64,000 nt of DNA, taken from contig CANJXF010000015.1 in NCBI GenBank assembly GCA_947478865.1, positions 1-64,000 on the forward strand. The letters run 5' to 3'. Both the position numbers and the translations under genes were made by a program. Below, in pieces: positions 12,233 to 44,666 of this stretch. The DNA comes from Verrucomicrobiales bacterium. Lineage in GTDB: Bacteria > Verrucomicrobiota > Verrucomicrobiia > Limisphaerales > CANJXF01. A model generated the notes under the pieces. That model saw nothing but the letters and a program-made list of their open reading frames with translations. It searched no databases and was not told where the DNA came from. The first letter of the stretch is position 1, and every line of letters starts with the position of its first letter.

Positions 12233-12257
12233 TGGTGGAGGCGCCGGGAATTGAACC
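12233..12257 (+). repeat. attL: Distal attachment site (copy of ssrA 3' end)
   Basis: This is a 25-bp exact match to 44315-44339, the T-arm and acceptor end of the tmRNA read on the minus strand. No other tRNA-like structure surrounds it, so it is the displaced 3' fragment of the pre-integration ssrA gene. It diverges at 12258 (T against C in ssrA), which marks the inner island border. Confidence 0.92.
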
Positions 12258-14055: not shown

Positions 14056-15288
14056 TTACTTCAAGTTTATAGGCACGTCGAAGACCAGCACACTTATCAT
14101 CAAATCCCTATTGGGGTCATCGCGGTGATGAAAAATAAACCTGAAACCTGTTTCGTTTTTGTATTCAAAAACCTGGCGTCTGAAATTCGCATGCTTCTTC
14201 GCAACGCCGGGTATTTGGGACAGAACATTGGTCAAATCTTTATTGCGGTTGAACAAAATGATGGCTGTTTTTGTGTCACGCCAGGCAGCATATCCGAGAA
14301 GCTGGTTGATAGTATCGGTAAAAACCTCTGCCCCTTTCCAAATTTTACATTCGCCGATAAAAATATTCTTCCCGTGTTCACGGATCAAAATGTCGGTCTT
14401 GCCATCAAAATTAAAGGTCTCCCCAGTACTACGACCCTGGTAATGGCCATTTAGCTGAACGAGGATGTGCGTCCGTAGGTCTTCCTCGCCCATCATACTG
14501 AATGCTTTTGGGCTTCGTTCCATCACCACGCTCATATCGGAGATGACAGAGAGAATGTGCTCGTATTGCTCTAACTCTAATCTCGGCTCAGGGTTAAGCT
14601 GCGCCTTCGTTGGAGAAACCAATGGCAGGTTCTTGCGAATGACCGGAGCGTAAGAAGTAATCTTCTCGCGAGCTTTAATCGGAAAGCCCAAGCTCTCTAC
14701 TAAGCCTTTATCTTTGAGAAATTTTTCCAATCTTCGATCCAGTCGATCGCGAATCTTTTGAACAATCCGAGTGTTGAAAGAATTCACTTCTTCAGAACCC
14801 CATTGAACATACTTTTCCACCAGTTCAATGTCGCGATCGAACGAGGCGCGCATGGCGACTTGATCGTGATCCGTCCGCGCATAATAAAACCTGATTTCCT
14901 GGCGCACAATCTTAGCCCTGGGTAATCCAGTGCTGAAAGTCGATGGGCGCAACATGAGAATCCGCTCGTCCCCCTCGAAGGGAACAACGAACTCGGCAAA
15001 CGTCCCAGGAATAATTAGTGGTTCGGTGCTCATTCTCAATCCGTATTGAGGTTGGCCCGTCACATCAATTTTGGTATCACCGTTCCTTCCAATAAACGTT
15101 TGTTCGCGATGAAGGATAATGGGATCAAGTCGGTGCTTGGCCTCAATCGCATCTGCCAAATCAGTCCGTATTACACCCAACAGGTAGTCGCTCGTGAATT
15201 CGTCGATTTCGACTGAAATTTGGCGCTCACACCGGCTCAAGAAATCTGATAGCGCGGCGTCTGAGAATAAAAGTTTGCGGTCACTCAT
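14056..15288 (-). CDS. PD-(D/E)XK nuclease-like protein of unknown role
   Basis: This 410-aa cytoplasmic protein has a helical N-terminal region of about 270 residues and a C-terminal restriction-endonuclease-like core. The core reads TFNFDGKTDILIREHGKNIFIGECKIWKG, where the Asp of KTDILI and the Glu-Cys-Lys of GECK fit the D...E-x-K active site. DTINQLLGYAAWRDTK follows, and the C-terminus ends in the beta strand VLVFDVPI. The nuclease assignment rests on this motif. It sits alone between the receiver-like gene and a resolvase in the island, so a defence function is plausible but only inferred from location and fold. Confidence 0.7.
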   Translation of the reverse strand: MSDRKLLFSDAALSDFLSRCERQISVEIDEFTSDYLLGVIRTDLADAIEAKHRLDPIILHREQTFIGRNGDTKIDVTGQPQYGLRMSTEPLIIPGTFAEFVVPFEGDERILMLRPSTFSTGLPRAKIVRQEIRFYYARTDHDQVAMRASFDRDIELVEKYVQWGSEEVNSFNTRIVQKIRDRLDRRLEKFLKDKGLVESLGFPIKAREKITSYAPVIRKNLPLVSPTKAQLNPEPRLELEQYEHILSVISDMSVVMERSPKAFSMMGEEDLRTHILVQLNGHYQGRSTGETFNFDGKTDILIREHGKNIFIGECKIWKGAEVFTDTINQLLGYAAWRDTKTAIILFNRNKDLTNVLSQIPGVAKKHANFRRQVFEYKNETGFRFIFHHRDDPNRDLMISVLVFDVPINLK

Positions 15289-15364: not shown

Positions 15365-15967
15365 CTACAATGTTGTTGGCGATGGGGGGATTGACACCCA
15401 CCGATACAATGTCGGCCTCGATATGCCCAGAGTCGAACAGATGTCAGGGATCGTCATTTTTCGATCTGCAAAAAGATTCTTCGCGGTCTGAACCTTTGGA
15501 TTGCTGCTGGAAAGTGGCTTTCGTCCACCGAGGCGACCACGAGCACGCGCCGCGCATAATCCCGCCCGCGTCCGCTCTTGGATCAGCCTTCGTTCAAACT
15601 GTGCCAAGGCACTGAAGACGTGAAAAATCAACTCGCCGCTCGCAGAACTCGTGTCGATCGCGCCATCACTAACTGACTTGAATGCAATGCCACGATCGCG
15701 AAGCTGTTCCACCAGGTCGATCAAGTCCCTGAGACTCCGGCCAAGTCGATCCAGTCTCCAAACAAGCAGGGTGTCACCTTTCTTTAACTCTCGCAGGCAC
15801 GCATTTAACCCCGGTCTCTCCGACTTCGAACCAGAGACTTTGTCGTGGAAAATATTTTTGGGTGAACACCCGGCTTTCTTCAATGCGTCTGTTTGAAGAT
15901 GTAACTCCTGAGCGTTCGTCGACACTCTGGTATATCCGACTAACCGGCCCAGTGATTTTTCGTTCAT
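15365..15967 (-). CDS. Serine recombinase (resolvase/invertase family)
   Basis: This 200-aa site-specific recombinase has the catalytic serine in GYTRVSTNAQE near residue 17. VWRLDRLGRSLRDLIDLVE contains the conserved arginines, and GELIFHVFSALAQFERRLIQERTRAGL matches the E-helix of Hin/Tn3-type enzymes. The C-terminal helix-turn-helix is IPDICSTLGISRPTLYRWV. It is intact and of normal length. A near-palindrome just upstream of its start may be its binding site. It could resolve cointegrates or invert a segment, but no transposase partner is present. Confidence 0.92.
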   Translation of the reverse strand: MNEKSLGRLVGYTRVSTNAQELHLQTDALKKAGCSPKNIFHDKVSGSKSERPGLNACLRELKKGDTLLVWRLDRLGRSLRDLIDLVEQLRDRGIAFKSVSDGAIDTSSASGELIFHVFSALAQFERRLIQERTRAGLCAARARGRLGGRKPLSSSNPKVQTAKNLFADRKMTIPDICSTLGISRPTLYRWVSIPPSPTTL

Positions 15968-31535: not shown

Positions 31536-34490
31536 TCAATAATATTGGCGAATGTATTCGTATGCCCGGTCAAATAATTCCTGCTCCCGATGGAGTTGAT
31601 ATTTTAGCAGTGTGCTGCGCAGGGCTTTTTTTACGTCGCGTTCCCCACCGGTGGTCTGTTGCCAACCGTCGAATCGAACGGCGCGCACGATGGCGTCAAT
31701 GTCGCCGACAATTTTTTCCACGATCACCGGCGTCGTCGCCGTCTTTACTTCTTTGAACAGTTCAGTCAGCGCAGCTTTGCCATGCTCTTGTTCCTGGGCC
31801 GGTACGAATTCCTTTTCCGCAGCGACCGTGTCTTTAGCCAGTTCCAACAACAGCTTTAAAAACGCCAGGCTCGTCAACAGACCTTTCTCGTGCCGCTCTT
31901 TCAAATCTTCAAGGCGCTGGCCCAGTGCGATGAACTTTGGGTTTTTTAAATGTTTACGGATTCGGGCGATGATGTTGATTTCGATTTCCCTGATCTTCTT
32001 CGGGTCTTTGGCATCGATGATTTGCGCCAGGACTTTTTCATCCATGACCAACGTTTCAAGATCATCAACGAGTTTCTCGACGTGAACATTCTTGTGAATC
32101 AACTCGATGGTCTTGGCTCCGAGCGCATGCCATAGGAGTTTGCCGTTGCCGCTTGGTGGTTTGATCGATTCATAAACCTGGCCGAGCCATCGGTAATCAT
32201 TTTCGTATACATTGAGGCAATCGTCCGGCGACAACGCTTCCCACACTGTGGCAAAAACAGAAAAGTCCGCTGCGTAAGCGTCACGTTTGTCGTTGTTGGG
32301 CAAACATTGCTGCGCTGCGATCAATCCTTCATAGCCACTGATCGTGCGATCCACTCCAGGGAAATAATCCACGCACTTTTTCCAAATGACCGGCAGTTGA
32401 GCCTTAACTTCCTCTAAATTGGTGATGACTTTCTTCAGCAACTCTTCATCGAAGTCGAGCGCACGGGCCACGTCATCAAAGACACCGAGGTAATCCACAA
32501 CCAACCCGTGAGTTTTATCAGGATACGGACGATTCGTCCGGCAAATGGCCTGGAGCAAATTGTGATCCTTCATCGGCTTGTCCAGATACATCGCCTGAAG
32601 GATTGGTGCATCGAAACCCGTCAATAGTTTTGAAGTAACGATCAAGAATTTCAACGGATGCGCCGGATCACGAAACTGATCGAGCAATTTCTCTTCATCG
32701 TCTTTGCTCCGTGTATACAAATTCTTGTAATCGTTGTTGCCCTGAACCGTCATCACGACGGCGCTCGCTTCTGTTGGTAAGATTTCGTCCAGTGCCCGCT
32801 TGAACAGGTGACATGACTCACGATCGAAAGTTACAACCTGCGCTTTAAAACCGTTCGGCTCAACTTTCGCCTGGAAGTGTTCAACAATGTCTGCGACGAG
32901 CGTTTTGATGCGCTCTGGCGATTTCACCAGCACGCCCATTTTCGCGGCGTGCTTCGAGAGTTCGCTCTGATCTTCCTCTGAAAGATCGCTGGTGATGTTT
33001 TTAAATGCCTCGTCGATGGCAGCACGATCGATTCGTAGCTGAACCAGGCGCGCCTCGAAATGCAGAGGCAGCGTTGCTTTGTCCCGGATCGATTCCTCGA
33101 ACGAGTAACGATTCATGTAACCTTTTTCATCCTCGTCAGCACCGAAAGCCCAGAACGTATTTCGATCAGCGCGATTGATCGGAGTGCCCGTTAAACCGAA
33201 CAGGAATGCGTGTGGCAGCGCTTCACGCATTTTTCGACCCAGATCGCCTTCCTGAGTTCTGTGAGCCTCGTCCACCATCACAATGATGTTTTTGCGATCG
33301 TTCAACAGACCTGGCGCTTCGCCGAACTTGTGGATCGTCGTGATGATGATTTTGCGTGTATCCTGCGCAAGCATCTGCTGAAGGTCACGGCGCGAAGGCG
33401 CTGGCACCACATTTGGAATATCGGATGCGTGGAAAGTGCCGGTGATCTGGCTGTCGAGATCGATTCTGTCTACAACGATGATGACAGTTGGATTTTTGAG
33501 CGCCGGATGTAGACGAAGTTTCTGAGCGGCAAACACCATCAGCAAACTTTTGCCTGAGCCTTGGAAATGCCAGATCAAACCTTTCTTCACCATCCCGACG
33601 AGCACGCGCTCAACGATTTGGTTCGCAGCTTCGTACTGTTGAAAGCGACTGATGATTTTTATTTTTCGACGCTTTTTGTCAGTCGCGAAAAGGGTGAAGC
33701 TCGCCAGGAGATCGAGCACGATCTTCGGCTGCAACATGCTGTTCACAGCTTTTTCTAGCTCGCACAGTCCGCCGATGGTTTCCGAATCTGCATCACGCCA
33801 CGGTGCCCACAGTTCAAGAGGCATTCGGATTGAGCCGAACCGATAAGTCTTTCCTTCCGTGGCGAATGAAAAAACATTCGGCACGAACAGTGCCGGGATA
33901 TTGTTTTCGTAATCATCGTGAATGTCGGCGGCACCATCGACCCAACTGATTGCCGGGCGCACCGGAGTTTTCGCCTCACCGATGACGAGTGGAATGCCAT
34001 TCACGAATAACACGAGATCGGGCCTGAGTTTCTTTTGCGAAAAGATGAACTGTTGAGAGCAGACGAAATCGTTGTTGCCAATCGTGTCGAAATCAATCAG
34101 TCGGACTGGCGTGTGTTCGTTGTTCGGGCCGAAGGGCATCGAACGCTCTCCACGCAACCACGCAGTAAATTCTTCATTGGCGCGCACCAGACCTTCGCTT
34201 TGCACGGAAAGAATAATAGCCCGAAGTTTGTAGACGACTTCGTCAGCACGCTCCGGCAGTTCTTTGATTTCAGGATTGAGCGCAATCAGCGCGTCACGAA
34301 GCCGATCCTCAACCAAAACATCATTATGCGTGCGCTGAAGTTGGTCGGCAGGAACAAACGTCCAGCCAAGGCCAGCAGCCAGAGCGGGCAACGATGCGCC
34401 TTTGAACAACGGTTCGCGCACCGCAGCGTCCTGTTTGCCACAAAGCAAATCGCGGACGTAATCCTCAACGCTATTGGCTTCGTTAAACAT
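31536..34490 (-). CDS. hsdR: Type I restriction enzyme, R subunit
   Basis: This 984-aa motor-nuclease subunit translocates and cleaves unmodified DNA in the type I complex. The N-terminal PD-(D/E)XK nuclease shows D158 (RPDLVLFVNG) and E172-A-K174. The SF2 helicase follows: Walker A near 308-316 (WHFQGSGKS), DEAH near 415 (MVDEAHRTQ), then FGLTGTPI, TGFDAPIL and QAICRTNRPYPDKTHGLVVDY. A helical C-terminal domain for complex contact completes a normal-length protein. It overlaps hsdS by 8 bp and all motifs are intact. Confidence 0.96.
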   Translation of the reverse strand: MFNEANSVEDYVRDLLCGKQDAAVREPLFKGASLPALAAGLGWTFVPADQLQRTHNDVLVEDRLRDALIALNPEIKELPERADEVVYKLRAIILSVQSEGLVRANEEFTAWLRGERSMPFGPNNEHTPVRLIDFDTIGNNDFVCSQQFIFSQKKLRPDLVLFVNGIPLVIGEAKTPVRPAISWVDGAADIHDDYENNIPALFVPNVFSFATEGKTYRFGSIRMPLELWAPWRDADSETIGGLCELEKAVNSMLQPKIVLDLLASFTLFATDKKRRKIKIISRFQQYEAANQIVERVLVGMVKKGLIWHFQGSGKSLLMVFAAQKLRLHPALKNPTVIIVVDRIDLDSQITGTFHASDIPNVVPAPSRRDLQQMLAQDTRKIIITTIHKFGEAPGLLNDRKNIIVMVDEAHRTQEGDLGRKMREALPHAFLFGLTGTPINRADRNTFWAFGADEDEKGYMNRYSFEESIRDKATLPLHFEARLVQLRIDRAAIDEAFKNITSDLSEEDQSELSKHAAKMGVLVKSPERIKTLVADIVEHFQAKVEPNGFKAQVVTFDRESCHLFKRALDEILPTEASAVVMTVQGNNDYKNLYTRSKDDEEKLLDQFRDPAHPLKFLIVTSKLLTGFDAPILQAMYLDKPMKDHNLLQAICRTNRPYPDKTHGLVVDYLGVFDDVARALDFDEELLKKVITNLEEVKAQLPVIWKKCVDYFPGVDRTISGYEGLIAAQQCLPNNDKRDAYAADFSVFATVWEALSPDDCLNVYENDYRWLGQVYESIKPPSGNGKLLWHALGAKTIELIHKNVHVEKLVDDLETLVMDEKVLAQIIDAKDPKKIREIEINIIARIRKHLKNPKFIALGQRLEDLKERHEKGLLTSLAFLKLLLELAKDTVAAEKEFVPAQEQEHGKAALTELFKEVKTATTPVIVEKIVGDIDAIVRAVRFDGWQQTTGGERDVKKALRSTLLKYQLHREQELFDRAYEYIRQYY

Positions 34491-35646
34491 TGGTGATGTT
34501 ATTCCACAACGCGGATTTTAGTGAATGCAAGGATTGGAGACTCGCGTCCACATCACGCATTTCTTGAATAAGAAGTCGGCTCTTCTTGTCGATCGAAAGC
34601 TGAACTGACCTTTCCGGTACGGGTAAAGTTAAGTTCCTTACAGCGTCCTGGGTGATATTTTTCATGGCCCCCCCAGTGCCAACTGCGCAAGATTCGATCT
34701 GTCTGCGCGCCTCCTCACTGGATAATGCTTCAAGAAAAAAACCGGCACAGGATACCTGATTCTTGAATTCCAGTCGCAACGTTTTGTCGCATAACATCAA
34801 ATTAGTATAATCATCATCGACGATGCACACGCGTCCAACGAGTTCACGAGTATTGCAACGAGTAATCAGAAAATCGTCTTTTCGTACAGCGAATTCAGGG
34901 CGAAAATCCGCAGGTGAAATCAATCGCTTGTTTTCGCCAGGGGCGAAGCCTTTAGGGCCAACTGCACTCACTTTTAAAACACCATATTCCTTTTGTTGCG
35001 CCGGTTCACCAACCCCTGAGACGCTGCGACCCGGCACAATATTTGACAAGAATTTGCCAAATTTCTGCCTGGGGTGCGACGACGCACAGACAACCTCATG
35101 ACGGAAAGCCGCGAGTGTCTTCTTCAAATTGGCGGCAACCGCTTGATAAGAATTTAACGTTTTATCAACAGCCCAAAGAATCTCAGCAATGCGCTGCTGT
35201 TCAGGTTTCGGCGGTATTAGGAACTCCTGTGCGGCGAGGGTTTTCCAGTTGATGGTAGGCGATAGAGAGCCGACCGAGATTGAAATTGCTCGATCGAAAA
35301 AGATGTCGCTCTGCATGAAAACTGGCAGGAACTCTTTTGCGATCGCATCCTCCCGTGCGCGCAAAACCATAGCGTGCGCAGAGCAGATGCCTTCGAAATC
35401 GGCCACGGCCAATTTGCGCTGATATGCCCTGCGCTTTCCAAAAATGATGTCGCCGGATTTGAATCGCAACTTCGTCGCCTCGACTTCATCCGGGGTTCCC
35501 CACCGCCGAATCTTCAGCGACTCACGATCGAGATGCTCCAGTCCGACGTAGCGATCGACACCCGCTTCAGCCGGATTGTCTACACGGTCGCCGATGTTAT
35601 CCGCCATATCGCTAAACTTTACTCGGCGCCAGGAAAGCTTTTTCAT
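34483..35646 (-). CDS. hsdS: Type I restriction enzyme, S (specificity) subunit
   Basis: This 387-aa subunit sets the DNA target. Two target-recognition domains are seen: the first spans residues 1-150 (YVGLEHLDRESLKIRRWG ... GDIIFGKRRAYQRK) and the second about 195-345. The first is followed by a conserved helical spacer (PPKPEQQRIAEILWAVDKTLNSY) and the second by a related helix region at the C-terminus. The target sequence cannot be read from the protein. It overlaps the nuclease-GHKL gene by 4 bp and hsdR by 8 bp. Confidence 0.93.
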   Translation of the reverse strand: MKKLSWRRVKFSDMADNIGDRVDNPAEAGVDRYVGLEHLDRESLKIRRWGTPDEVEATKLRFKSGDIIFGKRRAYQRKLAVADFEGICSAHAMVLRAREDAIAKEFLPVFMQSDIFFDRAISISVGSLSPTINWKTLAAQEFLIPPKPEQQRIAEILWAVDKTLNSYQAVAANLKKTLAAFRHEVVCASSHPRQKFGKFLSNIVPGRSVSGVGEPAQQKEYGVLKVSAVGPKGFAPGENKRLISPADFRPEFAVRKDDFLITRCNTRELVGRVCIVDDDYTNLMLCDKTLRLEFKNQVSCAGFFLEALSSEEARRQIESCAVGTGGAMKNITQDAVRNLTLPVPERSVQLSIDKKSRLLIQEMRDVDASLQSLHSLKSALWNNITNV

Positions 35647-36797
35647 CTTAATTTAATACGAAGGCGAGGATCGTCGAACCACTCGTGGATTTTCTCAAGC
35701 ATAGGATCACGGGGGAGAGATATCGTTAGCTGCACATCGTTGGGCAAACGCCGGAGCATGGCACGAACGAACTCGGCAAAGCCACTTAGATTCCAAACAT
35801 CATCAATAGAGACAATTAACTCTTGAGTGCCGGATGGGATTGCAATTGATGCCGCCAGCCTCTCTGCGCCCTTTCTTCCATAAGCCCAAGCTAATTTTAC
35901 AGTAACATTGTGGGTATCCACGTTCCCGAATGAAGCGAGGCCATCATTAAAAGTTAGTGCCAATCTGTTGGTGTTTTTTCTCTCGTGCTGAACAGATTCG
36001 TGGCGAATTGCGACCTTATCCTTAAACTCCTGAACAAAGGACGCATAAACGTAACTTCCAACATGACTTCGAGCCGAAGTCTTCGAAGAATCGAGGCTAA
36101 CTGTTGGATCAAAGTTTACACCGTCGTCTTCAAAAATAACCGTTCGATCGGCACACGTAATTTTAAACTGAGATGCGTTCCCGTGAAGGTAGGCGTTGTC
36201 ACTTAGTTCATATGCCAACCGAATCAAAAAGTCTCCAAGCCGAGGGGCTATCAGCGCGCTTACGTCCGGTCTCGAAAAAAAGGCATAAAATTGATCCCGT
36301 GCAGAGAATCGCGACATCTTTACAGTTGTGGCCTCCCCCGGCTGAATTTCTACGTTGGGATAATACGCGTTCCGCACATTAGGACGAAAACGGATTTCTT
36401 CTTCAATTTCGTGCCATGACCAAACGTGAATATCGAACGGATACTTTCCGCTCGCCGTTAATTTTCTCGCATGCTCTTGCAACGATTTATCACGCGGGGC
36501 GGTCGTCGCAATTGTAAAGCTGCTAAGACCGGGTTTGAATTTGATTGCCTTTTTACACTCGCGGCTGAGTTCAGCAGATTTGAGTTCGCTTCCAAGAGAT
36601 GAATCTTTGTCCTTACACTGAACTCCGGCGATTATGCTGCCGTACGAAGGTTTTCCAAAAATATCGACGCCACATTGAGGTTGGCCAGAGCGTCCGTTTT
36701 TTTGTGCATTCGGATCACTCCAGATTTCACGCCAAAGTTTCTGGCAAAGCGTTTCAAAATCCTGCCAGTTTTTCGGTATATCTAGTCGAAATTCCAT
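35643..36797 (-). CDS. Mrr-like nuclease fused to a GHKL ATPase domain
   Basis: This 384-aa fusion has a clear two-part layout. Residues 1-135 form a restriction-endonuclease-like domain with D45 (CGVDIFG), Q60-C-K62 (GVQCKDKD) and the strands FTIATTAPRD and FDIHVWSWHEI; D...Q-x-K is the Mrr-type variant active site. Residues 185-330 form a compact GHKL domain, with N-box E197-L-S-D-N201 (YELSDNAYLHG), D225-x-G1 box IFEDDGVNFD and a short G-rich loop SHVGSYV. A C-terminal helical tail follows. It lies between the MORC-like gene and hsdS and overlaps hsdS by 4 bp, so it is probably co-translated with the type I subunits. No methylase motif is present. Confidence 0.8.
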   Translation of the reverse strand: MEFRLDIPKNWQDFETLCQKLWREIWSDPNAQKNGRSGQPQCGVDIFGKPSYGSIIAGVQCKDKDSSLGSELKSAELSRECKKAIKFKPGLSSFTIATTAPRDKSLQEHARKLTASGKYPFDIHVWSWHEIEEEIRFRPNVRNAYYPNVEIQPGEATTVKMSRFSARDQFYAFFSRPDVSALIAPRLGDFLIRLAYELSDNAYLHGNASQFKITCADRTVIFEDDGVNFDPTVSLDSSKTSARSHVGSYVYASFVQEFKDKVAIRHESVQHERKNTNRLALTFNDGLASFGNVDTHNVTVKLAWAYGRKGAERLAASIAIPSGTQELIVSIDDVWNLSGFAEFVRAMLRRLPNDVQLTISLPRDPMLEKIHEWFDDPRLRIKLR

Positions 36798-36813: not shown

Positions 36814-38790
36814 TCAGACCTTTATCGCGGACTCCTGACTTCCTTTTTCTTTAGCCGATTCGACATTCAGTGACAATTCATCTGAGGGTTCGACAGATTC
36901 ACCTAAAAATTTTTCAATTTCTTTTCCCTGGAGAAACGGTGCGGTTTTCACACGGTCGTAAAGTTTGAGCAAACGGCTTTTCGCACGCTGTAGCACCGTG
37001 TTAAAAGTCATTGGCAGGATGCGCACTCGATCATCCATTTCTTTTCGCAGGCCGCTTTCAGCGGCTTCCAACTTTGAACCGAGCACGTAACATGTGACAC
37101 GAGAGTAATCGACGAGCAGTCCCTTTTTGAAAAGCTCTTTCACATATTCCCAACACTGATTTTTCTGGTCGCTGCTGACGACAACGCCCGGTCTTTTTAA
37201 TTCCACGATGACAAGATGATCCACTCCGACCTCCGCATTCGTTTCGCTGTCATATTTTGGGTACGAATAAAAACCTGATGATCCATCGGGAAGCACAACA
37301 AAATCAGGGCGCTTCAACGATCCTTTGCCTTTTTTGCCAAACAAGTTTTGAATTACAGTCGTCATCCCTTGGTTTGACGTGAACTCAATCGTCTCAAACT
37401 CAGGGCCAAAAATCCAAAGTCCTCGGTGAAATAACGGCTGGAGTCCCTGAACTTCCGGTGTGTCTGGAGAAGAAGTTTTGGCCAAAAGTTCATCCACGAG
37501 CTTTAATCGAACCTGTAGTTCATCGAGAACGATTTTGGCCATATCAACCGTCCATTCAGCCAAAATTTTATTCAGATCATCAAGCTGATCTGGATTCAAT
37601 TCATGGAGCCTGTGCAGAAGACCATAACGAGAGTGTGAAATTTCCAAGTTAGCCAAAACGCCGGACAAACTCTGAAGCTCCGGTTGAGATAGCGTTGGGC
37701 AGGCTTCCTGAATCGACTCTACAAACTCGTTCCATTTTTCCCGGCTCAGTGGAGCCATTTGCCTAAGTTTATCAGCGTTGAAATGACGAACTTCCTTCGT
37801 GGTCTGCTCGCGGCGCTCTTTTAATGAGCAGAGAAGACGCTGACGAAGTTCAGGTATCACTTCCTGCCGCACTTTTTTGTAAAGTTCGTTTTCTTCGTTA
37901 AATCCTGTCCAGTCTGATTTGACCGCGTCTGTGGTGGCTAAACAGTCGGCGAAGATTATGAATGTGTAACGCTTCGCCTCAACGCGTCGACCGTCAACCA
38001 AATCATCAAATCCATTTCCTGACCAACCACACGTTCCAACCAAGCGTTTATTTACGTGCCACGCGACCCCATGTTGTTTGGTTGTGCGATCAGTGCGTTC
38101 TGTATCGATCATGAGAATTTTGATCGGTGGCAAGTCGCCCATCGGAATAGTGATGTGGTCGATTCCTTTTTCGCTGATGTCTTCAAAGTCCACGCGAACC
38201 GAATTGACGGACACTTCAAAAGCAGGGTCTGTAAGAAAACGTTTTCCCAATTCTGACCGAATGCAATCAGGAGACAAAGGAGACTGGCTCTTTTGGATAA
38301 TCTCGATGGTAGTGCCGGATTCAGCACATTCATTCTCCGCTCGTTTTTCAACCTCAATCGGCTGAGCAATTCCTCGGCGGACGGTGTAGACAACTTGCTT
38401 TCCATCGGCGCAGGTTGTGACGATGTATTCGGAGCCGAAACAGAATCCCGCAAAACGTCCAATTCCATTACGTCCGAAAACATGGCGCGTCGGAAGTTCC
38501 GGTCTGCCCAGGACGGAAACCGTTTCCCCTTGCTCTTTTAAGCGGTCGTACGAAAATGTTCTCCAGCGGCGGAGAAACTGTTCTTCCGTCATGCCCCGCC
38601 CATTGTCGGATATTCTCAATCGCTCCCCCATCGCTGAAGGCCAGTCGATTTGAACATTTGTCGATCCGGCGTCCCAACTATTGGCCACGAGTTCGACTAC
38701 CGCAGTGACTGGATCGCTCAGCAATGCCCTTCCTGTGTATTGTTCAAGGAATCGAGGATCGAAGAGGACTTCTTGTTTGAGCCGGGCCAT
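36814..38790 (-). CDS. MORC-like GHKL ATPase with C-terminal Shedu-like nuclease
   Basis: This 658-aa protein begins with a MutL/MORC-type GHKL ATPase: N-box E33-L-V-A-N37 (VVELVANSWDAG), D62-N-G-R-G-M motif (ISDNGRGMT) and glycine loop FGRNGIGRFAGF at 105-116. An S5-like transducer fold is plausible to about residue 320, then a helical region. The C-terminal 170 residues carry PD-(D/E)XK elements: LWIFGPEFETIEF, D496 in RPDFVVLPDG and E530-L-K532 in LVIVELKRPG, like the Shedu/DUF4263 nuclease group. MORC-like ATPases are known beside bacterial restriction genes. Three bp separate it from hsdM2. Confidence 0.8.
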   Translation of the reverse strand: MARLKQEVLFDPRFLEQYTGRALLSDPVTAVVELVANSWDAGSTNVQIDWPSAMGERLRISDNGRGMTEEQFLRRWRTFSYDRLKEQGETVSVLGRPELPTRHVFGRNGIGRFAGFCFGSEYIVTTCADGKQVVYTVRRGIAQPIEVEKRAENECAESGTTIEIIQKSQSPLSPDCIRSELGKRFLTDPAFEVSVNSVRVDFEDISEKGIDHITIPMGDLPPIKILMIDTERTDRTTKQHGVAWHVNKRLVGTCGWSGNGFDDLVDGRRVEAKRYTFIIFADCLATTDAVKSDWTGFNEENELYKKVRQEVIPELRQRLLCSLKERREQTTKEVRHFNADKLRQMAPLSREKWNEFVESIQEACPTLSQPELQSLSGVLANLEISHSRYGLLHRLHELNPDQLDDLNKILAEWTVDMAKIVLDELQVRLKLVDELLAKTSSPDTPEVQGLQPLFHRGLWIFGPEFETIEFTSNQGMTTVIQNLFGKKGKGSLKRPDFVVLPDGSSGFYSYPKYDSETNAEVGVDHLVIVELKRPGVVVSSDQKNQCWEYVKELFKKGLLVDYSRVTCYVLGSKLEAAESGLRKEMDDRVRILPMTFNTVLQRAKSRLLKLYDRVKTAPFLQGKEIEKFLGESVEPSDELSLNVESAKEKGSQESAIKV

Positions 38791-38793
38791 GCG

Positions 38794-40299
38794 TCAGTGT
38801 TGTTCTTTTTTCGAGAATTGTTCAAGCAAGTCATTCATCGATCGGCGAAGGGTCTTCGAGCTTTCCCGCCAATTTTGAATGGTTTCTGATAACTTCTGCT
38901 CCTCGCTACCAGCCGTTGCATCCGTTTTGTTACGTTGCCGAACATAGAGTGGAATGCTCAGGTTTCCCTTGTTGGCGCGCACATCGTCCAGAGAATTGAC
39001 GCTTGCGAAGCCTTCCACATTTTCGAAGGTTTTGTATGCGTCTACAATTTTTTGTAAGTGATCGTCCCGGAGAAAACTTTGCGCACGCTCGCGAGTTACT
39101 TCGTTGACCGCGTTAATAAACAGGATTTTGTTTCGACGCGACTTTGCCTTTGTCGTGCGACAAATCACGACACACGCTTCCATTGGCGAGTTGTAAAAGA
39201 GATTGGGGCCGAGTCCGAGCACACACTCGATCTGATCCAGATCAATCAGTTTGGATCGCATATCCCGCTCTTCGTCGCGAAACAAAACTCCGTGTGGAAA
39301 CAAAATGGCGCAACGCCCCGACTTGGGTTTCAAGCTGGCCAAGATGTGACCGAAGAATGCGTAGTCGGCGCGTCCCTGTGGTGGCGTGCCGAGAAAATTT
39401 CGTTTATACGGGTCTTTTGACCACTTGATGCGATCCCACTGCTTGATGGAATACGGCGGATTCGCAAGCACCACGTCAAACTGGCGAAGTTGGTCACCAT
39501 CTGTAAACGCGGGCGATGCAAGCGTGTCGGCACGAACAATTTTGAAATCTTCGATTCCGTGCAAAAACATATTCATCCGGGCGATCGAAGAGGTCATCAG
39601 ATTGAGTTCCTGCCCGTAAAGTTTCAGTGTTCGAAACTCTTTACCCTGGCGTTGCAGTTCCGTCAGTGTAGACAAAAGCATTCCACCGCTACCGCATGTC
39701 GGATCGTAAATGGATTCCCCAGGCTGCGGGGCGAGCATGGATGTCATCAGATGCACAACAGTCCGGTTGGTGTAAAATTCCGCCGCCGTGTGGCCACTGT
39801 CGTCAGCGAACTTTTTGATGAGAAATTCATAAGAGACGCCAAGCTCATCTTCCGGCACGTTCGCGATTGAAAGGGTCAGTGAGGAAAAGTGTTCGACCAT
39901 GTTTTTTAGGACGTGGTCAGGAAGCCGATCTGTGTTTGTCCATTGGGCGTCACCAAAAATTCCGAACAGCGAGTCCGGGTTCGCTTTCTCAATGGCTCGC
40001 ATTGCGCTCTGGATCGCTTTCCCGACGTTTTTGGCAGAATTGCGCACGTCTTGCCAGTGCGCGCCGTCTGGAATGACAAATCGATGATTCTCCGCGAACG
40101 AAGCAAAGTCTTTGTCCCCGCCCGATTTTTTCAGGGCCATTTCAAACTCCTCATCGTAGACATCGGAGAGCCGTTTAAAAAAGATGAGCGGAAAAATGAA
40201 CTGTTTGTAGTCTCCGGCATCAACGAATCCACGCAGCAGAATCGCTGCTCCCCACAAATACGATTCAAGTTGTTGCTGGCTGACGCGACTCTTGTTCAT
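38794..40299 (-). CDS. hsdM: Type I restriction enzyme, M subunit (second copy)
   Basis: This 501-aa N6-adenine methyltransferase has an N-terminal helical domain (LESYLWGAAILLRGFVDAGDYKQFIFPLIFFKRLSDVYDEEFE), then SAM motif I near 199 (YDPTCGSGGML) and motif IV N280-P-P-Y283. Both motifs are intact, so it should be catalytically competent. It is clearly a paralogue of the first hsdM (497 aa), similar along the whole length but diverged in motif IV (NPPY against NPPF) and in the C-terminus. It overlaps that gene by 4 bp. Confidence 0.93.
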   Translation of the reverse strand: MNKSRVSQQQLESYLWGAAILLRGFVDAGDYKQFIFPLIFFKRLSDVYDEEFEMALKKSGGDKDFASFAENHRFVIPDGAHWQDVRNSAKNVGKAIQSAMRAIEKANPDSLFGIFGDAQWTNTDRLPDHVLKNMVEHFSSLTLSIANVPEDELGVSYEFLIKKFADDSGHTAAEFYTNRTVVHLMTSMLAPQPGESIYDPTCGSGGMLLSTLTELQRQGKEFRTLKLYGQELNLMTSSIARMNMFLHGIEDFKIVRADTLASPAFTDGDQLRQFDVVLANPPYSIKQWDRIKWSKDPYKRNFLGTPPQGRADYAFFGHILASLKPKSGRCAILFPHGVLFRDEERDMRSKLIDLDQIECVLGLGPNLFYNSPMEACVVICRTTKAKSRRNKILFINAVNEVTRERAQSFLRDDHLQKIVDAYKTFENVEGFASVNSLDDVRANKGNLSIPLYVRQRNKTDATAGSEEQKLSETIQNWRESSKTLRRSMNDLLEQFSKKEQH

Positions 40300-41789
40300 T
40301 TCGTCAGTCCTTCGCGTTGCAATAGTTTTGAAAGTTTGTCTTCCGCTGCATAGGCGTCCGCCAAAGCGCTTTGGAGATTTTTAACAGCTTCGGCAACGGT
40401 CATGTGTTTTTCGGTATTCACGCGTTCGATGTATCGAGGGATATTTAGGTTCCAATCGTTTCTGCTGATGTCGTCATGAGTGACGACTTTGGCCACACCG
40501 TCTACATCGGCGTAATTGGCGTACAACTGAAAGATTTGATTGGCATGCTCAGGTTCCAGAGTGTTTTGCTTACGACCGGTTTTTAAAAAAGTTGATCCAT
40601 CGATAATCAGCAGTTTGCCGCGACGAGGCGGTTTCTTTCTGGCCCGGAAAATCAAAAGGCAAGCGGACAAACTTGCACCGTAAAAAAGATTGGGGCCGAG
40701 GCCGATAACGGCTTCGAGCGTGTCCATCTCCAAAATTTTACGACGAATTTTTCCTTCAACTCCCATGCGGAACAGAACCCCGTGAGGCAACACGACTGCC
40801 ATCCGGCCCGTTGTAGACATGGACTTAACCATGTGCTGCACCCAGGCGTAATCGCCGCTGCTTTTTGACGGAACACCAGCAAAATTGCGCCCGTAACGAT
40901 CGTTGATCCAAGCGTCTTCGCCCCACTGCTCTAGTGAAAACGGTGGATTTGCGATGGTGCAGTCAAATGTAGACAACCTGTCACCGGAGAAAAACGCAGG
41001 CTCACGCAGAGTGTCTCCTCGGACGATCTGGAAATCTTCGATGCCGTGCAAAAACAGGTTGATCCTCGCGATAGCAGCGGTCGTCAGGTTCTTTTCCTGC
41101 CCGTAGATTTTCCCCCATAGTTTTTTGACGCTGCCTCCAGCGTCTCTGACGTGCTGGATCGCGCCAAGGAGCATGCCGCCTGTGCCGCAGGCGGGATCGT
41201 AAATCGTCTCGCCCTCTTTCGGATTCAGAATGCGGATCAACAATCGGACGACGCTCCGTGGCGTGTAAAACTCACCCGCTTTGCGGTTGGTTTGGTCGGC
41301 GAACTTTTTGATTAAATATTCGTAAGCCTGGCCCAGGACATCATCGTCGATGTCTTTGTTAGCCAGGGAAATTTTGGAAAAATGTTCAACGAGATCGCGC
41401 AGGAGCGCGTCGGAAAGACGGTTTTTATTGCTCCAGCCCGCGTCACCGAAAATTCCGTAGAGTGTGCTCGGATTCGCTTTTTCAATTTCGCGCAGCGCTC
41501 GCTGGATCGCTTGTCCGACGTTCGTCGTCTTCGATCTGACATCGCTCCAATGACTACCCTGTGGAATCTGAAAACGATGGTTCTCGGCAAACTGGGCGAA
41601 GGCGATATCGCCTGAAGATTCCTTCAGCGCGATCTGGAACTCTTCGTCGTAGACATCGCTGACGCGTTTGAAAAACAGCAACGGAAAAATGAAAGTTTTA
41701 AAATCCGATGCGTCAACCGGGCCGCGCAAAATGTTCGCGGCCTCCCACAGATGAGATTCAAGTTGTTGAAGCGTTGTTGTTTTGTCCAT
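40296..41789 (-). CDS. hsdM: Type I restriction enzyme, M subunit (first copy)
   Basis: This 497-aa N6-adenine methyltransferase heads the operon. Motif I is D198-P-A-C-G-T-G-G and motif IV N281-P-P-F284, both intact. The N-terminus (LESHLWEAANILRGPVDASDFKTFIFPLLFFKRVSDVYDEEFQ) is the same HsdM N-domain as in the second copy. The C-terminus is helical, as expected for S-subunit contact. One S and one R gene serve two M genes in the operon. The first ATG is used; a palindrome lies 12 bp upstream. Confidence 0.94.
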   Translation of the reverse strand: MDKTTTLQQLESHLWEAANILRGPVDASDFKTFIFPLLFFKRVSDVYDEEFQIALKESSGDIAFAQFAENHRFQIPQGSHWSDVRSKTTNVGQAIQRALREIEKANPSTLYGIFGDAGWSNKNRLSDALLRDLVEHFSKISLANKDIDDDVLGQAYEYLIKKFADQTNRKAGEFYTPRSVVRLLIRILNPKEGETIYDPACGTGGMLLGAIQHVRDAGGSVKKLWGKIYGQEKNLTTAAIARINLFLHGIEDFQIVRGDTLREPAFFSGDRLSTFDCTIANPPFSLEQWGEDAWINDRYGRNFAGVPSKSSGDYAWVQHMVKSMSTTGRMAVVLPHGVLFRMGVEGKIRRKILEMDTLEAVIGLGPNLFYGASLSACLLIFRARKKPPRRGKLLIIDGSTFLKTGRKQNTLEPEHANQIFQLYANYADVDGVAKVVTHDDISRNDWNLNIPRYIERVNTEKHMTVAEAVKNLQSALADAYAAEDKLSKLLQREGLTK

Positions 41790-42967: not shown

Positions 42968-44206
42968 TCACGCGACGTTTGTAGACGGCAACGAAACGAT
43001 ATTGTTGGGGCTGACTGGTCTGACGTTGAACCAGGATTGAGCGACGGCGGGCATTACCCGCTTCAGATAGTTCCGTTCGATGATCCGTGGGCTGTTTCCA
43101 GCTTCGTATGCGACTTTCGGAATGTCCTGAGTCTCGGCGACTCGGTAAGAAATAAAAGAATGCCTCAAGGCATTGTGCCTCCAAATTACCCCGGCTTTTT
43201 CAGCCAGCCACAAAAGCTGTTTGCTCATATTCGCAAAAGGCACGACCGGCCCCGATTCACGCACATGCGGACGGAGCCATTCTCGAAGCGCGTTCGACAT
43301 AGGTATCAGCCGTCTTATTTTAGTTTTTGAGTGGCTTGCACGCACTTGGATACACCCTTGTGCAAAATCGATGTCGGGCCATTCAAGTCGTTTGATTTCG
43401 GCGTGTCTGATGCCCGCGAATGCACCGAGCGCGAGGAACGGAATTAGCTCCGGGCGCGCTACGTTCAACAGCTTGGACAACTCTTCAGGTGTAAAAATTT
43501 GAATGTCATCGTGAACTTCGGTTGCCCGGTCAACATCCTTAATTCCCCGGTGATCTTTGGGCAGACAATCTCTTTTTTTGGCGAATTCGAACAAAGTTCC
43601 TAGGATGCGGCGAACGTTATTTCTGGTGCGTCCGCCAACTCCGAGCGAAGACAGATAATCTTCAATCTGCGCTGTCGTAATGCTGGCAATCGGACACTTG
43701 AAAGCTTTGCTAAACTTCGCCAAGCGAAGCTTCAAATCCTGCATGTAAACGGCACTGCGACCGTTTTGTCTCTTGTGCAAAAGTAACTCGTCTACAATTT
43801 CATCAACTGGTTTTGAAATGATCTTCTGTGAACGAGAAAAAGTCCGGGCCGCTTCGACAATAAGCTTGGAATCACCCACAAGGCTAAATGCCTCTGCGAA
43901 AATTTCCGCAGCTTTTTCAAGACTCACACCCGTAGGCATCAGTGTCGTCAATGATCGCACGTAAGAAAGTCGATCGTCACTTTTGAGCGCCAATACGTCC
44001 AGTTCGCCCCTCGATAGGTTTTTCGCAACGGACATTGCTTCGCTGTGAACTTCGTCAAACTTTGACCGGACAAAACGCACCACTTTGTGACCGTTGAAAT
44101 ATCGCAACTGATACGACACATAGCCGCGAGAGGATTTATGTTCGTAGACAGTCACGACGGTGCTGCCATGTTTTACTTGGAGTGGGAATTTTCGGTTCGT
44201 CTTCAT
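42968..44206 (-). CDS. int: Tyrosine recombinase (island integrase)
   Basis: This 412-aa integrase has an N-terminal arm-binding part, a SAM-like core-binding domain near residues 145-215 and a catalytic domain from about 230. Visible catalytic elements are Arg in FAGIRHAEIKRLEW, Lys in SHSKTKIRRLIPMS, the H-x-L-R-H box (HNALRHSFISY) and the nucleophile Tyr in ERNYLK. The usual GHS before the nucleophile reads GNS, so one His is Asn. It lies 108 bp from the ssrA 3' end, transcribed away from it, as is typical of tmRNA-integrated islands. Confidence 0.9.
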   Translation of the reverse strand: MKTNRKFPLQVKHGSTVVTVYEHKSSRGYVSYQLRYFNGHKVVRFVRSKFDEVHSEAMSVAKNLSRGELDVLALKSDDRLSYVRSLTTLMPTGVSLEKAAEIFAEAFSLVGDSKLIVEAARTFSRSQKIISKPVDEIVDELLLHKRQNGRSAVYMQDLKLRLAKFSKAFKCPIASITTAQIEDYLSSLGVGGRTRNNVRRILGTLFEFAKKRDCLPKDHRGIKDVDRATEVHDDIQIFTPEELSKLLNVARPELIPFLALGAFAGIRHAEIKRLEWPDIDFAQGCIQVRASHSKTKIRRLIPMSNALREWLRPHVRESGPVVPFANMSKQLLWLAEKAGVIWRHNALRHSFISYRVAETQDIPKVAYEAGNSPRIIERNYLKRVMPAVAQSWFNVRPVSPNNIVSLPSTNVA

Positions 44207-44314: not shown

Positions 44315-44339
44315 TGGTGGAGGCGCCGGGAATTGAACC
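44315..44339 (+). repeat. attR: ssrA-side attachment site
   Basis: This 25-bp segment is the T-arm and acceptor end of the tmRNA (minus strand) and is identical to 12233-12257. It marks the core in which the integrase recombined. Because the island carries this copy, ssrA stays intact. Confidence 0.92.
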
Positions 44340-44666
44340 CGGGTCCTTAGTAAACAAACCAGCCGCGACTACATGCTTATCCAGAGTAATATTTTCTGCT
44401 ATGTGATGGCGCTCTGACTCGAGTCACACTGCCTAGTCCGCATGAAATTTCTCGGCTGAAAACGCGCGGTCTCCATTTCCAGCCATGCCTGCTGTTTACG
44501 TCCAATCACCGTAGCAGGTGTTCAGTGGTGAACGTCGGAGCCTTAGGCTGCGAGAGCTAACTCTTCGTTTGCTTTTATGTTTTGGTTCGATTTTTTACGA
44601 GGCCAACGAACCGTCCTCGGCATGCCGCCTCTGGCGTATTTCCAAAGTCGAAACCAGTACGCCCCC
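44315..44666 (-). ncRNA. ssrA: Transfer-messenger RNA (tmRNA)
   Basis: This 352-nt RNA rescues stalled ribosomes and tags the nascent peptide for proteolysis. The 5' end reads GGGGGCGTACTGGTTTCGAC; its first seven bases pair (one G-U) with the 3' acceptor CGCCTCC, followed by ACCA encoded in the gene. The T-arm is CCGGG-TTCAATT-CCCGG. A resume frame ends GCA AAC GAA GAG TTA GCT CTC GCA GCC TAA, giving the tag ANEELALAA or a slightly longer form beginning upstream. It is the integration target of the island and keeps full tRNA-like ends. Confidence 0.95.

Follow-up and report, generated by a model that had tools for sequence, protein, structure and literature searches.

The coupling of a nuclease to a sensor or a switch follows a logic that is already known. 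VcSduA and paraMORC3, among the closest described proteins, carry a GHKL ATPase and a nuclease of the PD-(D/E)xK superfamily in a single chain (PMC12137116, PMC2292703), and mutation of the ATPase site or of the nuclease site of VcSduA abolished its defence (PMC12137116). In the TPR-GreA/B-C-PIN systems the restriction endonuclease-like REase is counted among 13 effector domains (PMC8195603). Type I restriction-modification (RM) operons have been shown to harbour defence genes of their own: TgvAB is embedded in such an operon and is active without HsdR activity (PMC11411939), DarTG2 is embedded in one as well (PMC12255303), and PrrC, encoded in a type IC locus, is kept inactive by the RM enzyme until inhibition of that enzyme sets it off (PMC12707154).

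Here we analyse a protein, which we call Mrr-GHKL, whose component domain types are already known, as is the embedding in a type I operon, and for whose fusion of an Mrr-type nuclease to a GHKL ATPase we found no published description; literature searches that paired Mrr with GHKL, DUF4325 with STAS, or Shedu with both GHKL and type I returned no account of this architecture.

The operon and its cargo slot

The window, that is, the whole stretch of DNA that was analysed, is 64,000 nucleotides long and comes from a Verrucomicrobiales bacterium. The Mrr-GHKL gene is the fourth in a co-directional run of six:

40296..41789, minus strand: hsdM1 (N6_Mtase and HsdM_N by Pfam; NPPF motif)
38794..40299, minus strand: hsdM2 (N6_Mtase and HsdM_N by Pfam; NPPY motif), the tandem hsdM being kept in relatives
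36814..38790, minus strand: 658-aa GHKL-nuclease gene (HATPase_c_3 and a C-terminal PD-(D/E)xK-like nuclease), the second embedded cargo gene
35643..36797, minus strand: Mrr-GHKL gene, 384 aa (Mrr-like nuclease, GHKL ATPase and an alpha/beta, probably STAS-like, domain)
34483..35646, minus strand: hsdS, type I specificity subunit (Methylase_S; PADLOC Specificity_I, E 1.5e-111)
31536..34490, minus strand: hsdR, type I restriction subunit (TIGR00348 hsdR, 538 bits against a cut-off of 284.55)

The original prediction had placed the gene at 35643-36797, which is exact. We find it to lie on the minus strand: the frame starts with ATG at 36797 and ends with TGA at 35645-35643, and across the same interval the plus strand holds many stop codons. 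Overlaps of a few bases join hsdM1 to hsdM2, Mrr-GHKL to hsdS and hsdS to hsdR, and the 4-bp overlap with hsdS that had been proposed is indeed present, with the sequence ATGA. The two hsdM genes, in tandem at 38794-41789, are distinct, each with its NPP[YF] motif; as this tandem recurs in Streptomyces and Exiguobacterium plasmids, and again in genomes from the same order, the methylase may have the form of an M1-M2-S heterotrimer. An identity with the methylation-associated defence system MADS was rejected, as HsdM and HsdS fall well short of the cut-offs of the MAD2 and MAD5 models and the operon does contain HsdR.

The whole operon lies inside an island of ~32 kb whose integration site is the tmRNA gene (ssrA); the 3' end of this gene is present as a 25-nt exact direct repeat at 12233-12257 and 44315-44339:

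44315-44666: tmRNA gene
42968..44206, minus strand: tyrosine integrase of the island, adjoining the tmRNA gene (Phage_integrase, E 1.3e-8)

Heavy-metal resistance genes are also found on this island, together with a 410-aa ORF (14056-15288) that has a possible PD-(D/E)xK motif, KTDILI...IFIGECK, and adjoins a resolvase at 15365-15967.

The region between hsdM and hsdS of tandem-hsdM operons is a cargo slot. In Streptomyces hirsutus and Exiguobacterium plasmids the genes run hsdM-hsdM-hsdS-hsdR and the slot is empty, and genomes belonging to the same order have cargo of different kinds between hsdM2 and hsdS or between the two hsdM genes:

L145 and L147: DUF4062-HATPase_c_4 genes
L146: a HigB-like toxin and an HTH/IrrE gene
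L148: a DUF4062-AAA gene and a second small gene
L149: an AlbA_2-HATPase_c_4 gene

Three of these five loci thus hold a gene in which a GHKL domain (HATPase_c_4) is joined to DUF4062 or to AlbA_2. The Mrr-GHKL gene was absent from the sister tandem-hsdM operons examined, and we rejected the idea that it encodes a type I RM subunit, because its presence in the operon family is not constant. The third-position GC content (GC3) of the two cargo genes in our operon is 0.48 and 0.44, lower than that of the hsd genes, which lies at 0.53-0.58. Being an insert in a normal restriction-modification set, the Mrr-GHKL gene seems to be an added anti-virus weapon rather than a part of the machine.

The full-length family has three members, namely Mrr-GHKL itself, a protein of Cytophagales (L002) and one of Prevotella (L003). 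The last two were the sole full-length relatives found among genome contigs, viral contigs, plasmids, phages, 196 relatives and 388 + 395 genomes, so that the architecture appears to be rare; phages and plasmids gave nothing beyond matches to the N-terminal domain and weak ones to NarQ. The Cytophagales gene has unrelated neighbours on its contig and the Prevotella gene lies within a defence island, in both cases outside any hsd operon.

These distributions bear upon the reading that Mrr-GHKL works in partnership with the type I enzyme, either delivered or licensed by HsdM/HsdS or serving as a guard in the manner of PrrC. Such a partnership would agree with the site between hsdM2 and hsdS and with the ATGA overlap, with the recurrence of GHKL genes in tandem-hsdM operons (L145, L147, L149), and with the precedent of PrrC, restrained by the RM enzyme in a type IC locus (PMC12707154). 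However, both full-length relatives stand outside hsd operons, close hsd relatives do without the gene, and in the cargo-free Streptomyces operon an overlap of equal length, 4 bp, links hsdS to hsdM, which makes the overlap a trait of the operon style and not of the Mrr-GHKL protein. We judge the partnership unlikely, and the narrower claim of the original prediction, that the output of the nuclease is matched to the specificity subunit, is not supported, on the same grounds and because the same site holds unrelated genes in sister operons.

Three domains of the Mrr-GHKL protein

According to our analysis the protein consists of three successive domains, the first two of which had been proposed from the sequence:

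36354..36776, minus strand: Mrr-like restriction-endonuclease-fold domain, residues 8-148 (E15, D45 and Q60-x-K62; alignment, Mrr_cat_2 and fold match)
35949..36329, minus strand: GHKL domain of SpoIIAB/RsbW/NarX type, ~residues 157-283 (N box E197/N201/H205-G206; G1 D224-x-G226; G2 G247)
35646..35930, minus strand: C-terminal alpha/beta domain, residues 290-384, probably STAS-like (DUF4325-like) (AF2 secondary structure; weak co-linear profile match)

The residues named in the prediction, D45, Q60-C61-K62, E197, N201 and D224-D225-G226, are all at their predicted positions. In the N-terminal domain E15, D45, Q60, C61 and K62 are invariant (22 of 22 aligned relatives), and the D...Q-x-K geometry of the nuclease core, on which the predicted Mrr-like nuclease depended, is therefore present and conserved. 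Taken alone, the protein matches Pfam Mrr_cat (E 0.045) and Mrr_cat_2 (E 0.094) below cut-off in each case; Mrr_cat_2 is matched by all three full-length members, with a best E of 6.5e-4, and lies above cut-off in two relatives that share the Mrr-GHKL N-terminus (L006 and L035). The AlphaFold model, confident at a pLDDT of 84, has here the order helix-strand-strand-helix-strand-helix-strand, and in the viral library BFVD its top Foldseek match is to a phage protein annotated 'Restriction endonuclease' (E 7.7e-6, probability 1.00). From alignment and model together, the predicted Mrr-type restriction-endonuclease fold can be regarded as established, and the domain would be expected to cleave DNA.

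The same ~140 residues are widespread, occurring at 26 loci in genome contigs and on 51 plasmids. They head TPR-GreAB-C-PIN proteins (L004, L005) and an NB-ARC/nSTAND-TPR protein (L028), and in other relatives they precede several regions with no Pfam match; over residues 8-148 the nuclease heads of the REase conflict proteins are 42-54% identical to Mrr-GHKL. Such a variety of partner modules marks the REase head as an exchangeable effector and the part downstream of it as the sensor or the switch. We also observed this head on a large set of TPR-GreAB-C-PIN proteins of ~1300 aa from Deltaproteobacteria and their relatives (L009, L010, L011 and others).

For the second domain, Pfam gave no GHKL match with the Mrr-GHKL protein alone, and HATPase_c matches two of the three full-length members (best E 0.0057). 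We ran a profile of the three-member family on 783 genomes, 388 of the phylum of our genome and 395 of that of the Prevotella relative, and obtained ~25 matches at residues ~147-265; the regions inspected were histidine-kinase catalytic domains (NarX/DesK-type) or GyrB, and seven were confirmed by Pfam as HATPase_c with E from 1.8e-12 to 8.7e-16. Sequence matches in the PDB were weak (E 0.3 and above); apart from two non-GHKL exceptions, they were to DosT, VraS and GyrB and coincided with the N and G1 boxes. Foldseek, run with the whole model and with residues 150-384, placed SpoIIAB first (probability 1.00; E 6e-5 for the fragment), followed by RsbW and ThkA, and a phage HATPase was also among the matches of this domain. 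E197, N201, H205-G206, D224, G226 and G247 are invariant in all three members, in a region that is otherwise just 23-28% identical. Profile and model matches confirm the predicted GHKL (Bergerat) fold, so that the structure prediction that had been suggested as a check recovers this fold and the restriction-endonuclease one, and chance is excluded as the source of the nuclease and GHKL signals.

Not every box of the ATPase is intact. The N box (ExxxN) is kept with E197 and N201. In G1 (DxGxG) D224-x-G226 is kept, but N, S or K stands in place of the second Gly in each of the three members; G2 reads HVGS, a degenerate form, in Mrr-GHKL, GVGS in the Cytophagales protein and GSGG in the Prevotella one, G247 being its sole invariant residue. 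ATP binding is plausible, because E197, N201 and D224 are kept, and ATP hydrolysis appears uncertain, as turnover may be weak or lost with the second Gly of G1 and with the degenerate G2. The fold had been called minimal, which is slightly off, since ~125 residues are usual for SpoIIAB/RsbW.

Several identities were considered for this domain and rejected. Residues 150-185 contain no His, the model shows no pair of DHp helices and no response regulator gene adjoins, and with the DHp domain absent the protein is not a classic histidine kinase, which disposes of a two-component sensor. It does not belong to MORC/paraMORC, as its GHKL domain is central and not N-terminal, the model has no S5 element and another alpha/beta unit follows the GHKL domain. 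Shedu (DUF4263) was set aside too, since DUF4263 has no match in Pfam or PADLOC and the nuclease is Mrr-like; searches with PADLOC and NCBIfam gave no match for the protein.

The third domain was not mentioned in the original prediction. In the AF2 model residues 290-384 form a separate unit of the order b-a-b-a-b-a-b. Pfam PF14213 had no match in the genome under study, and in other genomes the proteins that bear it are ordered winged helix, GHKL, DUF4325. With these wHTH-GHKL-DUF4325 proteins hhalign aligned residues 185-351 to their positions 114-325 in a single co-linear match, a weak one at E 0.002; the fragment from residue 150 outscores 100 of 100 column shuffles, and the C-terminal part alone gives E 0.027, equalled by 2 of 100 shuffles. 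Ser338 is invariant in the three full-length members. A Foldseek match to the RsbV/RsbW complex was discarded as support for STAS: RsbV is chain 6m36_B, the matched chains are A, G, I and O, and, if these are taken as RsbW, the match backs the GHKL domain alone. We regard a STAS-like identity of residues 290-384 as suggestive, unproven and, judging by the sequence profiles, fairly probable; Mrr-GHKL would then represent a nuclease-headed form of the wHTH-GHKL-DUF4325 layout.

Proposed function and its rivals

Starting from the observed folds, the conserved catalytic and N/G1-box residues and the cargo nature of the locus, we consider it likely that Mrr-GHKL is an accessory DNase directed against invaders and housed as cargo in the type I operon, with an Mrr effector that is switched by a GHKL domain. 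The Mrr-type N-terminal domain would be the effector that cuts DNA, and the SpoIIAB/RsbW-type GHKL domain, followed by the probable STAS-like one, would be the switch. Binding and turnover of ATP, together with dimerisation through GHKL and an interaction with either the C-terminal domain or some partner, may keep the nuclease off until infection releases it, and the placement in the operon would provide for expression shared with the hsd genes and not for a shared target. The ATP-gated cleavage that had been proposed is a reasonable expectation of this kind; the infection trigger and the anti-phage role are likewise inferred.

We may even suggest a single-chain partner switch, where the GHKL domain, as a serine kinase of the SpoIIAB/RsbW type, acts on the STAS-like domain of its own chain, to which the invariant Ser338 belongs, and phosphorylation, via ATP/ADP, toggles the Mrr nuclease; for this particular mechanism we have low expectations and hold it to be distinctly unlikely.

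The upstream neighbour, on which the original prediction was silent, likewise unites a GHKL ATPase and a nuclease in one protein. Its 658-aa product has HATPase_c_3 (Pfam, E 2.7e-19) and a C-terminal nuclease motif, RPDFVV...VIVELKRP, read by eye; against a model of the restriction enzymes BbrUII/HgiDII it gives E 1.4e-29, far below the cut-off. This is the architecture, GHKL plus nuclease, of paraMORC3 (PMC2292703) and VcSduA (PMC12137116). The protein matches PHROG 6203 across almost its full length.

One could suppose that Mrr-GHKL and its neighbour form a two-protein heteromeric machine, as the genes are adjacent, co-directional and 16 bp apart, each encodes a GHKL domain with a nuclease, and their GC3, lower than that of the hsd genes, would allow a joint arrival. 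Dimerisation is common to GHKL proteins, which would also suit such a machine. Yet relatives of each protein occur without the other: the Cytophagales and Prevotella members have no paraMORC-like neighbour, and full-length relatives of the 658-aa protein are found both on plasmids and in genomes from the same order, away from hsd operons. Five of these relatives (one 70% identical), and likewise the plasmid copies examined, have no Mrr-GHKL. We therefore find the two-protein machine very unlikely; judging by these distributions, the adjacency of two GHKL nucleases of different builds is most likely a coincidence of cargo. That Mrr-GHKL is a toxin, namely a nuclease turned on the cell's own DNA by DNA damage or stress, or else regulates transcription with a nuclease domain that merely binds DNA, would be in line with the C-terminal order shared with wHTH-GHKL-DUF4325 proteins, in which an HTH replaces the nuclease, but is highly improbable in view of the fully invariant E-D-QxK set, which argues for a working nuclease.

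Comparison with known systems

Like VcSduA and paraMORC3 (PMC12137116, PMC2292703), the accessory DNase that we propose joins GHKL and a nuclease of the PD-(D/E)xK superfamily in one chain. In those proteins the nuclease is of Shedu type, whereas in Mrr-GHKL it is N-terminal and of Mrr type (D...QxK), the GHKL domain is SpoIIAB/RsbW-like, there is no S5 or clamp-like middle domain, and the small C-terminal domain is a different one. If the GHKL domain does gate the nuclease, Mrr-GHKL would offer a small single-gene model for a Bergerat-fold ATPase that switches on DNA cutting.

The REase-headed conflict proteins, TPR-GreA/B-C-PIN and STAND (PMC8195603), share the same N-terminal nuclease module with Mrr-GHKL and differ in the switch, which is TPR-GreAB-C-PIN or an NB-ARC/nSTAND NTPase in them and GHKL here. 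One nuclease head is therefore seen with three kinds of switch, TPR-GreAB-C-PIN, STAND and now GHKL, and the modules known to control Mrr-type immune nucleases gain one more, a GHKL domain resembling those of anti-sigma factors.

With wHTH-GHKL-DUF4325 proteins Mrr-GHKL has in common, by the weak co-linear profile match, a GHKL domain followed by a C-terminal one that is, in Mrr-GHKL, probably STAS-like; they begin with a winged helix and keep the second Gly of G1, whereas Mrr-GHKL begins with a nuclease and has lost this Gly. The anti-sigma kinases SpoIIAB and RsbW are the best solved-structure match of its ATPase domain and, unlike them, Mrr-GHKL is fused to a nuclease, and its gene is flanked neither by a sigma factor nor by an anti-anti-sigma gene of its own. 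Should the partner switch be true, it would mean that the switch logic of sporulation and stress response was carried into antiviral immunity.

TgvAB, DarTG2 and PrrC resemble Mrr-GHKL as independent defence genes amid hsd genes, but they belong to other families and are sited between hsdS and hsdR or elsewhere, whereas Mrr-GHKL occupies the hsdM2/hsdS junction of a tandem-hsdM operon. This junction is a place to seek new defence genes, often GHKL-bearing ones.
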